A stretch of DNA of 53,058 nt from Planctomycetota bacterium. GTDB lineage: Bacteria; Planctomycetota; Phycisphaerae; Phycisphaerales; SM1A02. The notes under the pieces are model-generated. The model ran no database searches. It was not told the origin of the DNA and saw only the letters and a list, made by a program, of their open reading frames with translations. Where the stretch lies: NCBI GenBank assembly GCA_017859745.1, contig JAFMML010000015.1, forward strand, positions 1 to 53,058. Direction: 5' to 3'. Position 1 is the first letter of the stretch; each line of letters opens with the position of its first letter. The translations under genes and the position numbers were made by a program. Positions 3,030 through 6,914 of the stretch are shown here, piece after piece.

Positions 3030-4448
3030 TCAACCGACCGGCGGCGCCTCGAACGAATCGCCGAAGATCGCCCGCAGCAACAGCGACCGTATCTCCGTGG
3101 CCCTGATCGAGTCCGGCACCCCGCTCGGGAGCGGGCCGAAGGCCAGCGGCCGATGCTCGGACGGCAGATCGTTCCGCCCGTGCGAACCGCCCACCATCGA
3201 ACCGTCAAGCGGTACGACGTCCATCACCATGCGCTGACCGAGGGCCTTGCGAAGGAGCTTGGAGGCGACGACCGCCCGTGGATGCCGAATCGCCGGATCG
3301 ATGAAGAGTTCGCAGGGATCGAATCCGGTCTTGCGGAAGATCTCGACACAGCGGGCGTAGTCGGGCGCCCGGGCGTCGTCGAGCCAGTGTCCCCACTCGA
3401 ACCACCGGTCCGACTCGGCGATCGCCACAAGATCGCCACTTCGAGCGTGTGCCAACCCCGACTCGCGAAGACTTTCGCCGGCAAGAACCTGCTCGACGCC
3501 GTCGAGCGATTGGATCCGGGCCGCCAACTCGTCGGCGTCCGCCCGGCCGCTCGGATCGAGATAGACGTGCGCGATCTGGTGGTCGACGACCGCAAAGGCC
3601 TCGCTTGCGAAGGGGTCCAAGACCTCACGCCCCTGCTCTTCACGAACCTGCAGCCATCCACCTCGACGCAGTTCGCGGTTGATCGCGACCGGCCGTGAGA
3701 CCGGAACGATCCCGTACTCCGAGACGACGATCGGACGAACGCCCTCCTCCTCGAGATACGAGATCAAGTCGCCGGCGACCTCGTCGATCTCCGCAAGCGT
3801 CCCATCGATGCGAGAGTCGTCCGGCCCGAACCGCTGCAGGTCGTAGTCCAGATGCGGCAGATAGACCAGCGAGATCGTCGGTCGATGCTCCCGCCAGATC
3901 GTCTTCGTCGCCTCGGCGATCCATCGCGTCGAGGCGATCCCGGCTCGCGGCCCCCAGAAGTCGAACAGCGGAAAGCGACCCAGCGAGTCCTGCAGTCGAT
4001 CGCGAAGATCCGCGGGCTTCGTCCAGCAGTCGGGAATCTTGCGCCCGTCGGCGGCGTAGATCGGCCGCGGCGTCAACGAGATCTCCTGCGTGCCGCCCAT
4101 CGCGTACCAGAAGCAGACGTTCGCACAGGTGATCGACGGGTCGATGCGGCGGGCGGTCTCCCAGACCTTCTCGCCCGCCACGAGACGATTGGACTGTCGC
4201 CACATCTGCACTTCGCCGAGGGTCCGGTCGAACCAACCGTTGGCGACGGCGCCGTGGTCTGCCGGACCGAGACCCGTCACCATCGAGGACTGCACCGTGC
4301 AGGTCACCGCCGGCAGCGGGGGACGGATCTCGCGCGGCGCTCCATGCCGGGCTGCGAAGGCCGAGAGGCGAGGCGTCCGCTCGCCCAGGAGACCGCGGCT
4401 GAGACCGACGAGATCGAGAAGCGCAACCGGCTGCGGCGTGGCGGGCAT
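3030..4448 (-). CDS. eboF: EboF-type alkaline phosphatase/nucleotide pyrophosphatase family protein
   Basis: 472 aa of the type I phosphodiesterase/alkaline phosphatase superfamily. Seen: N-terminal [12 protein letters not shown] with the first metal-binding Asp, a [13 protein letters not shown] segment, [21 protein letters not shown] with the Thr nucleophile position, and [16 protein letters not shown]. In nucleotide pyrophosphatases the last motif is usually DxxGHxxGP; here the His is replaced, which to my memory also holds for other EboF proteins. Its assignment rests mainly on neighbours: eboC and eboE lie directly upstream. The cluster is linked to moving metabolites across the inner membrane (scytonemin precursor in cyanobacteria); the substrate here is unknown. 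Confidence 0.85.
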
Positions 4449-4490: not shown

Positions 4491-5630
4491 TCAACTTCCG
4501 GCGAAGCGTCTCGCGAGCATCCAACCGGCCCCGTAGAGCAGCACGCAGATCGCCAAGGGAAGCGGCCCGAGCGGCGCCAGCATCACCGCGTCGATCAGGC
4601 AGAGGCTCCCGAGCCAACGGCCCACCAGGCGGGGAACAGGCGTTCGACCGGACCACTTCGCGACGACGAACACCCAACCCCCGAAGGCCGCAACCGTCGC
4701 CGCATCGCGCAGACCCTGCTCTTCGACGGACACTCCAAGGCCGAGCGTCGGCAGCAACGCGCCGAACCCAAGTGCCGGCAACAGGCAGGGCACCCCACTG
4801 GCGACGACCCACCATGGCCCGCGTCCGAGTTCGGACGCGGTCCGGATGCGACTTGCCGGCATCGACACCGCCCGCCCGCACTCCGGGCAGCGGGCCGCGT
4901 CCTCGAGAAGTTCCTGTCCGCATGCGGGACAGGCCCGGCGAACGGCGGCGACCTCCCCTCGGGCCACGACGCTGACCGCGAACACGAACACCGCGACCAC
5001 GCCGGCCGGGACCAGCACCACCGCCAAGTCGAGCCCTTCCCTTGGAATCCACGCCGCCGTGGGCCCCGACTCCGCGTTCGGCATCGTGGCCGCCGCGGCC
5101 AGCACGATGGCAAGACCTCGGCAGAGCGCTGGAAGCCCCACCGCCCACGACACCCGCGTGTGCAGGAGGTCGTAGGCGACGATCAAGGCCGTCAGCGTCG
5201 CCGTCAACGTCAGCACCGCCGGATCGATGAACGCGGGCCCCGACCCGCTTCCCCCCAAGAGCCACAGACTGCCCATCCAGACCAGGACGGCGACGAGCAC
5301 CGCGGATCCGACGCGGATTCGTCCCGACGGAAGGGGGCGGTCGGGACGCTCCCGGCGATCGACGGCGAGATCGAACACGTCGTTCAGAATCAACCCGAAC
5401 ACGTAGAGGCCGCAGATCCCAACGACGACCCTCGCGAACAGCCCGAGGTCTGCGACCTCGAGACGAGGATCGGAGGCATCCGAAGCCCACGACGCTCCGG
5501 GGAGGTTCGGCACACGCCCCTGCGCCATCGTCCCGAGCCATGCCCCCAGCACCGCGTTGCTCGCGATCGTGGGCAGGTTCGGCGGCCGAACGAGTTCAAG
5601 CCAGGCGCGTGCTCGGGATGATCCGGCCAT
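4491..5630 (-). CDS. eboC: EboC, UbiA-like membrane prenyltransferase with an inserted zinc ribbon
   Basis: 379 aa, polytopic (about 8-9 hydrophobic helices). The UbiA signature is present: N83-D84-V-F-D87 with D91, then RPDRPLPSG, and the AYDLLHTR segment near 152-159. In the cytoplasmic loop after the helix ending FAVSVVARGEV (about 212-226) lie two CxxC pairs, C234/C237 and C248/C251 (CPACG and CPECG), a classic rubredoxin-type zinc ribbon not expected in this family. The start at ATG 5630 was chosen because the protein then begins like other UbiA proteins (LELVRPPNLP) and a -10-like TACCCT lies 7 nt upstream; the frame is open to 5723. It lies between eboE and eboF. Prenyl donor and acceptor are unknown. 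Confidence 0.87.
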   Translation of the reverse strand: MAGSSRARAWLELVRPPNLPTIASNAVLGAWLGTMAQGRVPNLPGASWASDASDPRLEVADLGLFARVVVGICGLYVFGLILNDVFDLAVDRRERPDRPLPSGRIRVGSAVLVAVLVWMGSLWLLGGSGSGPAFIDPAVLTLTATLTALIVAYDLLHTRVSWAVGLPALCRGLAIVLAAAATMPNAESGPTAAWIPREGLDLAVVLVPAGVVAVFVFAVSVVARGEVAAVRRACPACGQELLEDAARCPECGRAVSMPASRIRTASELGRGPWWVVASGVPCLLPALGFGALLPTLGLGVSVEEQGLRDAATVAAFGGWVFVVAKWSGRTPVPRLVGRWLGSLCLIDAVMLAPLGPLPLAICVLLYGAGWMLARRFAGS

Positions 5631-5756
5631 CGAGCGCAGGGTAGCGGGCGTCGGAGGCCTTCCCGATGGAACCAGCGCCCCTTCCGAGGCGATGGAACTC
5701 GAGTCCGGACAGGATCGGGCCATGACCCGACCCGGTGCCGCGTTCGAAACGACGGT

Positions 5757-6914
5757 CTACTCGGCGACCGCGTCGAGCACACCCCGTACGAATCGGAGTT
5801 CGTCCGCGATGCCCTCTTCGAGGGACCCCGGTCGCATGGCTGCGGGGAGCGCCGACCACGCGTAGGTCTCGACCTCGAGGAAGTCGCAGCCGTCCTCGGG
5901 CCCGATCGCATCGAGACAGGCGGCGATGTCGTCGCGGGTGGTGCCGACGCCGCCGAGTCGCTCGGCGAATACCGGCACGTGGAAGTGGATTCGCCAGAGG
6001 CCCTCCGGCGCGGACTCGAGTGCGGCTGGCAGGTCCTCGAAGAAGCGGACGGTTCCATCGCCGGAGAGCACCGCGGTCTGATGCAGCCAGCGAGGCTCCT
6101 CGAAGGGTCGCAGCGAACGAAAGTCGCCTCCGACGCCGTCGAAGGCGACGGCGTTGGAGATCTGCACCCTGCCGATCAGGACGCCGGCGTCGCGATAGGC
6201 GTCGATCGACTCCGCCTGCTCCTCGAACAGCACCGAGGCGTGGCAGACGTCGTGACAGGCGCGAAGGTGCGGCCGCGCCGCCTCTCCACCGGCCTCGTCG
6301 ATCGCCTCCGCGAGGAACGAAGCGGTCTCGTCGGCCCGCTCGAGTCGGCATCCCGGCTCCGGCTCGACGTCGATGTGGATCAGGACGCCGGTGCGGTCGT
6401 GGATCTCCCGAAGCGCCGGAACCAGGGAGGCCAGACCCTTGCGGGCCTCCTGCATCGCCGCTTCATCCGCGAACGTGGTGCGCCATCCGATGGGAAGCGT
6501 GGTCACGCCCGCGGACGACGTGCCCGCGGGCACCAGTCGCGGCAGCAGGTTCGCGAGTCGGCGAGTGAACTCCACTCGCTGCGGGTCCGCCCAGTGGGGC
6601 TCGTACACGGCATGCTTGACGATGCGGCCGTGGAAGTCGCCGAACGGAAAGCCGTTCAGCCCCGCGACCAGGAGACCTCGCTCGGCGAGACGATCGCGAA
6701 TCCCCTCGGCCAGGCCTTCGGGTTCGAGGCTCGCCGCGGCTTCGGAGGAGAGCCACAGCCCGATCGCGAGCGGAGCGTCGCCGGCGAGTCGACGTCTCAC
6801 CTCCGGAGCGGTCTCGAGGATCGCCCGCAACGAACGGTCGAGGCCCGGCCCGGGATGCACGTTGGTGCAGTAGCCCAGAGGCGGAGTCGAATTGAAGCGC
6901 GGGCTCGACGTCAA
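5757..6914 (-). CDS. eboE: EboE, xylose-isomerase-like TIM-barrel protein of the ebo cluster
   Basis: 385 aa. The N-terminus LGYCTNVHPG is diagnostic of EboE (metabolite traffic protein), followed by GLNGFPFGDFHG and KHAVYEPHWADP, also typical. Metal-site-like residues of the sugar isomerase/endonuclease IV barrel are visible: HIDVEPEPG, LRACHDVCHASVLFEE, RVQISNA, HFHVPVF and FLEVETYAW. Catalytic activity has not been shown for the family. Translation appears to begin at TTG 6914, five bases after GGAG. An ATG further upstream is not available without overlapping the preceding gene, whose stop is at 6933. It is first of the three ebo genes. Confidence 0.9.
   Translation of the reverse strand: MTSSPRFNSTPPLGYCTNVHPGPGLDRSLRAILETAPEVRRRLAGDAPLAIGLWLSSEAAASLEPEGLAEGIRDRLAERGLLVAGLNGFPFGDFHGRIVKHAVYEPHWADPQRVEFTRRLANLLPRLVPAGTSSAGVTTLPIGWRTTFADEAAMQEARKGLASLVPALREIHDRTGVLIHIDVEPEPGCRLERADETASFLAEAIDEAGGEAARPHLRACHDVCHASVLFEEQAESIDAYRDAGVLIGRVQISNAVAFDGVGGDFRSLRPFEEPRWLHQTAVLSGDGTVRFFEDLPAALESAPEGLWRIHFHVPVFAERLGGVGTTRDDIAACLDAIGPEDGCDFLEVETYAWSALPAAMRPGSLEEGIADELRFVRGVLDAVAE

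Follow-up and report, generated by a model that had tools for sequence, protein, structure and literature searches.

A predicted C4 zinc ribbon in the L6-7 loop of an EboC-like, UbiA-family membrane protein of the Phycisphaerales

An EboC-like member of the UbiA superfamily, encoded in the 53,058-nucleotide stretch of planctomycete DNA analysed here (the window), carries a predicted four-cysteine (C4) zinc ribbon in the loop between its transmembrane helices TM6 and TM7. The ribbon is real, it is well placed, and for a UbiA enzyme it is unusual. It is a lineage-specific and unstable addition of a common module, and no new kind of system. Quinones, chlorophyll, haem and archaeal lipids are all products of UbiA enzymes; how the active sites of these enzymes are reached by soluble partners is, to our knowledge, poorly known. 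We propose, with moderate confidence, that the ribbon is a structural, probably Zn2+-binding element of the L6-7 lid loop that would offer a docking or assembly surface, with a presumed partner and a presumed effect on activity. The features discussed below are collected in Table 1.

Table 1. Coordinates of the features, in the window unless a locus is named
Feature	Position	Strand	Basis
EboC-like UbiA-family membrane protein, 410 aa	4491..5723	-	PF01040, NF035940 below cut-off, AlphaFold2 fold
EboE, TIM-barrel protein, immediately upstream, same operon	5757..6914	-	NF035939 373.7 bits, cut-off 250
EboF-like type I phosphodiesterase, downstream, same operon	3030..4448	-	PF01663 174 bits; related loci share gene order
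C4 zinc ribbon (predicted), C265-x2-C268-x10-C279-x2-C282	4878..4931	-	Translation, Pfam, AlphaFold2, Foldseek
NDVFDLAVD, first aspartate-rich motif NDxxDxxxD, end of TM2	5358..5384	-	Alignment and model
ARGEV, place of second aspartate-rich motif, end of TM6; A-R-x-E, not DxxxD	4950..4964	-	
TM6, AlphaFold2 model residues 200-225, helix before ribbon loop	4959..5036	-	
TM7, AlphaFold2 model residues 274-297, first long helix after ribbon loop	4743..4814	-	
Tandem EboC-like copy, genus g11	L116:5069-6142, L119:5078-6163, L121:5072-6145	+	

The frame that encodes the host (4491-5723, minus strand) is open and uninterrupted from an ATG at 5723. The first-pass annotation had begun the protein at the ATG at 5630, which is residue 32 of the 410-residue frame; the cysteines that it numbered 234, 237, 248 and 251 are indeed present, and are residues 265, 268, 279 and 282 in the longer count. 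The 54 bases at 4878-4931 (minus strand) translate to CPACGQELLEDAARCPEC, with two CxxC knuckles. Against Zn_Ribbon_1 (PF13240; cut-off 25), the ribbon scored 23.4 bits when the whole protein was scanned, just under the cut-off, and 27.7 bits, over it, in a six-frame search of the genome, where one further place matched below the cut-off. The pattern C-x2-C-x(8-12)-C-x2-C arose in 7 out of 20,000 shuffles of the window protein. Because of this low frequency and the recurrence of the ribbon at the same place in 32 of 110 EboC-like proteins, it is neither a chance pattern nor a sequencing error. The annotation had itself named a sequencing error as what could undo its proposal; both that and a frameshift are ruled out by the open frame and by the ribbons of the relatives. 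All four cysteines and the glutamate of CxEC are kept in 32 of 32 ribbons, and the glycine that follows in 28. The spacing of the inner cysteines is 10 residues in 20 ribbons, 11 in 10, 12 in one and 22 in another.

Whether the ribbon forms in a predicted structure had been suggested as a check, and AlphaFold2 does place an ordered ribbon there (pLDDT 80-85), with short strands and values of 83, 85 and 80 across model residues 231-260. Folded alone, from 14 ribbon sequences, it gave 79 and 76 over residues 11-30. When the lone ribbon was compared with the PDB using Foldseek, the first 13 rows superposed at 0.6-1.5 A over 23-28 columns, with E values of 0.27 or worse; later rows superposed less well (up to 11.2 A), and the VIA Z was at most 3.3. 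These first rows comprise RadD, Trabid NZF1, an IFT-A subunit, archaeal ribosomal proteins, MDM2, a RanBP2 finger and ArnAB, in each of which the matched region is presumably a zinc site. The modelled fold is consistent with the ribbon class, and the match statistics are weak, as is to be expected at this length. The ribbon probably binds a metal, presumably Zn2+.

As to the host, it scored 48.3 bits against the Pfam UbiA model (PF01040; cut-off 34.2). Its top NCBIfam match was the EboC equivalog model NF035940, at 76.1 bits for a cut-off of 250, and the SCO3242 model gave 75.5 bits, likewise far under its cut-off. Since the NF035940 score is so far below the cut-off, "EboC-like" is the safer name. 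The neighbours at the locus are EboE and the EboF-like protein, followed by a Dus protein and one with DUF4440, and from sequence the operon is read as eboE-eboC-eboF, with an EboC-like middle gene. Of 108 loci examined in the order, 103 had EboE, whether or not the ribbon was there, and most of the EboC-like genes are therefore the same gene in the same operon. A complete eboA-F cluster, side by side, was not found at the window locus. Two DHQ-synthase-type genes occur in the window's genome, on contigs other than that of the operon. A PRK06203-type DHQ-synthase-like protein on contig C116 of this genome (L254:907-2397, plus strand), which scored 434.2 bits for a cut-off of 333 and has no linkage to the operon, is a candidate EboD, since EboD presumably falls in the PRK06203-type model. 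An EboA profile had no match in the window's genome, nor did it match in the controls, so that this negative is no sign that the gene is absent.

The nearest described relative is the EboC of ebo clusters (NF035940; Ubi-297 of Maribacter), which is alike in being a UbiA-type membrane protein that adjoins EboE and an EboF-like phosphodiesterase. Unlike EboC proper, the window protein reaches 76 of 250 bits and has a ribbon, and E, C and F stand together at its locus without A, B and D. Ubi-297 is reported to farnesylate quinoline-like substrates, 8-HQA being the best (PMC9235831). The 2016 description found no further conserved domain in EboC proteins, saw ebo genes unclustered in three Planctomycetes, and placed EboF in the type I phosphodiesterase family (PMC5133447). 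A membrane-anchored EboA-EboB-EboC complex has been proposed for the ebo pathway (PMC6282210).

The AlphaFold2 model of the EboC-like protein was built with 72 sequences (model number equals protein number minus 30) and had a pLDDT of 86.5 and a pTM of 0.87. It has the UbiA fold, with 6m31 at Z 19.9 (265 aligned, rmsd 5.0), 4od4 at Z 19.4 (256 aligned, rmsd 3.4), human UBIAD1 8djk at 17.2, and AfUbiA at 16.7 (4tq4) and 16.1 (4tq3), the best row of another fold being at Z 12.1. With archaeal DGGGP synthase (6m31) and AfUbiA (4tq3), the protein shares both this fold and the first aspartate-rich motif, of which N84, D85, D88 and D92 are invariant among 17 aligned sequences, the window's included. 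In the same alignment, A224 and E227 of the second motif are invariant and R225 is kept in at least 90%. The canonical DxxxD after TM6 is absent, A-R-G-E-V being in its place, and for that reason we assign the protein to the UbiA superfamily on its profile score and fold and do not call it a canonical UbiA. Its prenyl transfer activity is putative. We know of no ribbon in 6m31 or AfUbiA. AfUbiA, as described in PMC4106721, has cytoplasmic loops after TM2 and TM6, as does the window protein, and DxxxD after TM6, where the window protein has A-R-x-E and the ribbon.

In the model, TM6 ends at ARGEV, the ribbon comes next and TM7 follows, which makes the ribbon a predicted insert of the L6-7 loop. 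This agrees with the earlier placement in the loop behind the ARGEV helix, near the second active-site motif. In every one of the 32 ribbon-bearers, the first cysteine lies 11-23 residues past the A of the second motif; 31 of them have A-R-x-E and one (L019) has A-S-R-E. As a side observation, the first motif starts with N-G or N-A, not N-D, in nine ribbon-bearing proteins of genera g8, g10 and g36 (L070, L073, L091, L092, L098, L105, L110, L111 and L112), and likewise in five additional g10 EboC frames.

To follow the distribution of the ribbon, 301 genomes of the order (presumably Phycisphaerales) were searched at the protein level, and 206 had a match. Loci were drawn from the top of the match list, ranked by likeness to the window protein, and one EboC-like frame was taken per locus, giving 110 loci, two of them duplicates; truncated L075 and L108 were left out, and the named L117, L120, L125 and L130 were added for their ribbon. 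The first-pass annotation had proposed a count of homologues with the four cysteines, and had set relatives of the same order without them as evidence against itself. Four cysteines were found at the same place in 32 of the 110 (28 of 106 without the four additions picked for their ribbon), so that the ribbon itself is borne out; 78 of the 110, one of them in the window's own genus, are without it, and the ribbon is not fixed in the order. A ribbon as a fixed part of the EboC-like family is ruled out by the same 78. By family, it occurs in 28 of 83 proteins of the window's own family (10 of 30 genera) and in 0 of 23 from the order's other families; no ribbon-bearer with a family code (28 in all) falls outside the window's family, and the remaining four are the four named additions. 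Three genera are mixed, with the ribbon in 2 of 3 (g1, the window's own), 6 of 10 (g2) and 1 of 2 (g9). In L005 (on the same contig as L124), a ribbonless member of the window's genus, ARGEV is followed by a short stretch and then by a window-like flank. Among the 78 ribbonless loops, no partial or half-decayed ribbon was seen by eye. Five further g10 frames, chosen for their genus from outside the 110, all had the ribbon.

On a tree built without the ribbon columns (110 rows, with L130 entered untrimmed), 8 changes of the ribbon trait are needed, at least 4 of them forced by well-supported branches. A single ribbon clade was rejected by the AU test (p-AU 2.9e-39; a quick unrooted tree of 106 rows, four long-branched rows having been dropped), and that history is thus ruled out. 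The ribbon was therefore gained or lost repeatedly, and an EboC-like enzyme can do without it. Beyond the order, 199 genomes of the phylum were searched, with a match in 99; the ribbon was found in 0 of the 19 best other loci, most of which may be non-orthologs because only 3 of the 19 have EboE adjoining. Among named genomes, 13 of the best 80 of 271 relatives had the ribbon, 12 of them from Phycisphaerae, Phycisphaerales or Phycisphaera; the thirteenth, L115, is of the window's genus. The earlier suggestion of a lineage-specific innovation holds in this respect, with 28 of 83 in the window's family, 0 of 23 in other families and 0 of 19 at other loci of the phylum.

The type of ribbon itself was not invented by EboC, since the class has many ribbons like it. 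When a profile was made from the EboC ribbon and its flanks, 332 of the 397 class genomes matched it at an E value of 0.001 or better. In five class genomes (presumably Phycisphaerae; three of the window's genus, together with G302 and G334, picked from the class match list), 9, 10, 8, 11 and 34 matches were counted, against 0, 0, 0, 0, 0, 1, 2, 2, 0 and 1 in ten outgroup genomes, with at most 150 candidates scored in each genome. The outgroup was reached via loci of Verrucomicrobia, Opitutae, Kiritimatiellae and Lentisphaerae; five of its ten genomes are small (1.1-1.5 Mb), and the larger ones (3.6-6.4 Mb) still had 0-2 matches. Of 33 host frames other than EboC, 32 have at least one hydrophobic segment and 27 at least two, the frames read for L201, L222 and L227 possibly differing from the exact profile match; by the same rule, 11 of 270 soluble EboE, EboF and Dus frames (some contigs counted twice) have at least one, and none has two. 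The ribbons of these other hosts lie near the N-terminus, near the C-terminus or internally, and Pfam gave weak zinc-finger-like or unknown matches in five of ten hosts and none in the other five. CPxCGYxLxx...RCPECG-type ribbons are frequent in the class, for example in L196-L204 and L210-L233, and the frames read mostly have hydrophobic segments. Among the papers listed by literature searches for zinc ribbons together with UbiA, Planctomycetes, Phycisphaerae or Planctomycetota, none dealt with such ribbons. The annotation knew of no zinc ribbon in a UbiA enzyme, and a search combining zinc ribbon, UbiA and prenyltransferase gave a single paper, on a different subject.

The EboC ribbon appears to be an instance of a broader tendency in this class to have such ribbons on membrane proteins, and EboC may have taken it up more than once. 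By mean likeness, an EboC ribbon was closer to EboC ribbons of other clades than to the 33 non-EboC ribbons in 7 of 32 cases, which would fit repeated uptake, in a comparison that does not decide the matter because the 33 were picked by the EboC-ribbon profile. In the class-wide profile search, six EboC ribbons scored 70-89 bits, each of them belonging to a genus represented in the profile; the best other match was at 42.6. EboC ribbons of genera g2, g8, g10 and g19 were not among the matches listed, and EboC ribbons therefore do not make up a sequence group of their own in that search.

A second frame directly follows EboC in genus g11 (L008, L009 and L010, seen again as L116, L119 and L121). 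This tandem copy aligns with EboC; its NDxxDxxxD stretch is missing or changed, and A-W-G-R replaces A-R-x-E. Pfam UbiA had no match in the two copies scanned (L119 and L121). Nonetheless, the C, C, C, E, C and G of the ribbon are invariant in the g11 tandem copies. Since it outlives the catalytic motifs, the ribbon can hardly be taken for a part of the chemistry. A less altered second copy with a ribbon follows EboC in L105 (genus g10). In addition, L006 has a fourth tandem copy, cut by the contig end, in which the ribbon is present, and a short frame in L012 is, by eye, a possible remnant of one.

In the mechanism that we propose, an EboC-like prenyltransferase would have acquired a C4 ribbon in its cytoplasmic L6-7 lid loop, and this ribbon would fold there as a compact, rigid knob behind the second active-site motif. 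The knob would offer a cytosolic surface for docking or assembly and so hold a partner at the mouth of the active site. That partner might be another EboC-like subunit, a different Ebo protein, or one common to the many ribbon-bearing membrane proteins of the class. The ribbon is not regarded as part of the chemistry because the majority of relatives, including one from the same genus, are without it. EboE and EboF flank ribbonless EboC-like copies too, and so are not ribbon-dependent partners; that either of them needs the ribbon is unsupported. A second EboC-like subunit, or a receptor common to many ribbon proteins, is possible. Docking or assembly is favored because the motif-less tandem copy keeps its ribbon, a retention that could instead be inertia after duplication. 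The main rival to docking is a lid or sensor under metal or redox control, in which the ribbon would steady the L6-7 loop and gate the active site by zinc supply or cysteine oxidation. Such a role would suit the position of the ribbon, 11-23 residues from the second motif and in the loop that, together with L2-3, partly closes the substrate cavity of AfUbiA (PMC4106721). However, 78 of 110 EboC-like proteins manage without a ribbon, the tandem copy keeps one with no catalytic motifs left to regulate, and similar ribbons lie near either terminus or inside other proteins with hydrophobic segments, and we consider such control doubtful.

It is about equally doubtful that the ribbon is a generic module of membrane proteins across the class, with a common job (quality control, clustering or a shared cytosolic receptor) and with EboC as one host of many. 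The matches in 332 of 397 class genomes, the 8-34 matches per genome in five class genomes versus 0-2 in ten outgroup genomes, the 27 of 33 other hosts with at least two hydrophobic segments versus 0 of 270 soluble frames, and the mere 7 of 32 EboC ribbons that are closer to those of other EboC clades all point that way; yet the profile also catches any similar C4 ribbon, whatever its descent or function, and the 33 other ribbons are its best matches, which inflates their likeness. A combined and tentative scheme, no better than speculative, is that the C4 ribbon of Phycisphaerae might be a cytosolic tag of membrane proteins that is read by a shared partner. EboC would have gained this tag in its catalytic lid, perhaps repeatedly; in one genus, a duplicate EboC would have become a non-catalytic, ribbon-bearing subunit, and the UbiA enzyme would act as a ribbon-linked pair. 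That the ribbon is a neutral decoration, functionless and tolerated by a long loop, might be argued from its repeated gain or loss and from the many relatives that live without it, but seems very improbable, given that the four cysteines are kept in 32 of 32 ribbons although the relatives are 26-52% identical to the window protein, and that a half-decayed ribbon was not seen by eye in the 78 ribbonless loops.

A docking role, by analogy, would have precedents in the ribbon of certain heliorhodopsins and in the RanBP2/NZF fingers among the nearest folds. RanBP2/NZF zinc fingers resemble the lone ribbon model with weak scores, and no kinship is claimed; they are eukaryotic, and the PDB titles put them in complexes with Ran and ubiquitin. 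Zinc-finger heliorhodopsins combine a polytopic membrane protein with a C4 ribbon, which was proposed to be a sign of partner-protein recruitment; unlike the window ribbon, which lies in a loop at the active site, theirs is N-terminal and archaeal (PMC8612252). If the ribbon is indeed a docking element of the lid loop, its presence and absence within one genus and its retention in a motif-less copy provide a ready-made comparison for the study of partner access. The ebo pathway is unsolved, and a ribbon-bearing EboC may give a means of isolating its partners. More widely, the many ribbons on membrane proteins of this class are an unexplained trait.

Two further observations concern the ends of the EboC-like proteins. 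Fourteen of the 110 (L018, L023, L028, L029, L036, L037, L043, L045, L047, L058, L059, L061, L065 and L078) stop 57-63 residues past the place of A-R-x-E, the TM7-8 two-helix hairpin being apparently absent. In genus g14, six frames (L041, L042, L046, L048, L051 and L052) run to 437-665 residues from stop to stop, and may have a long N-terminal extension.
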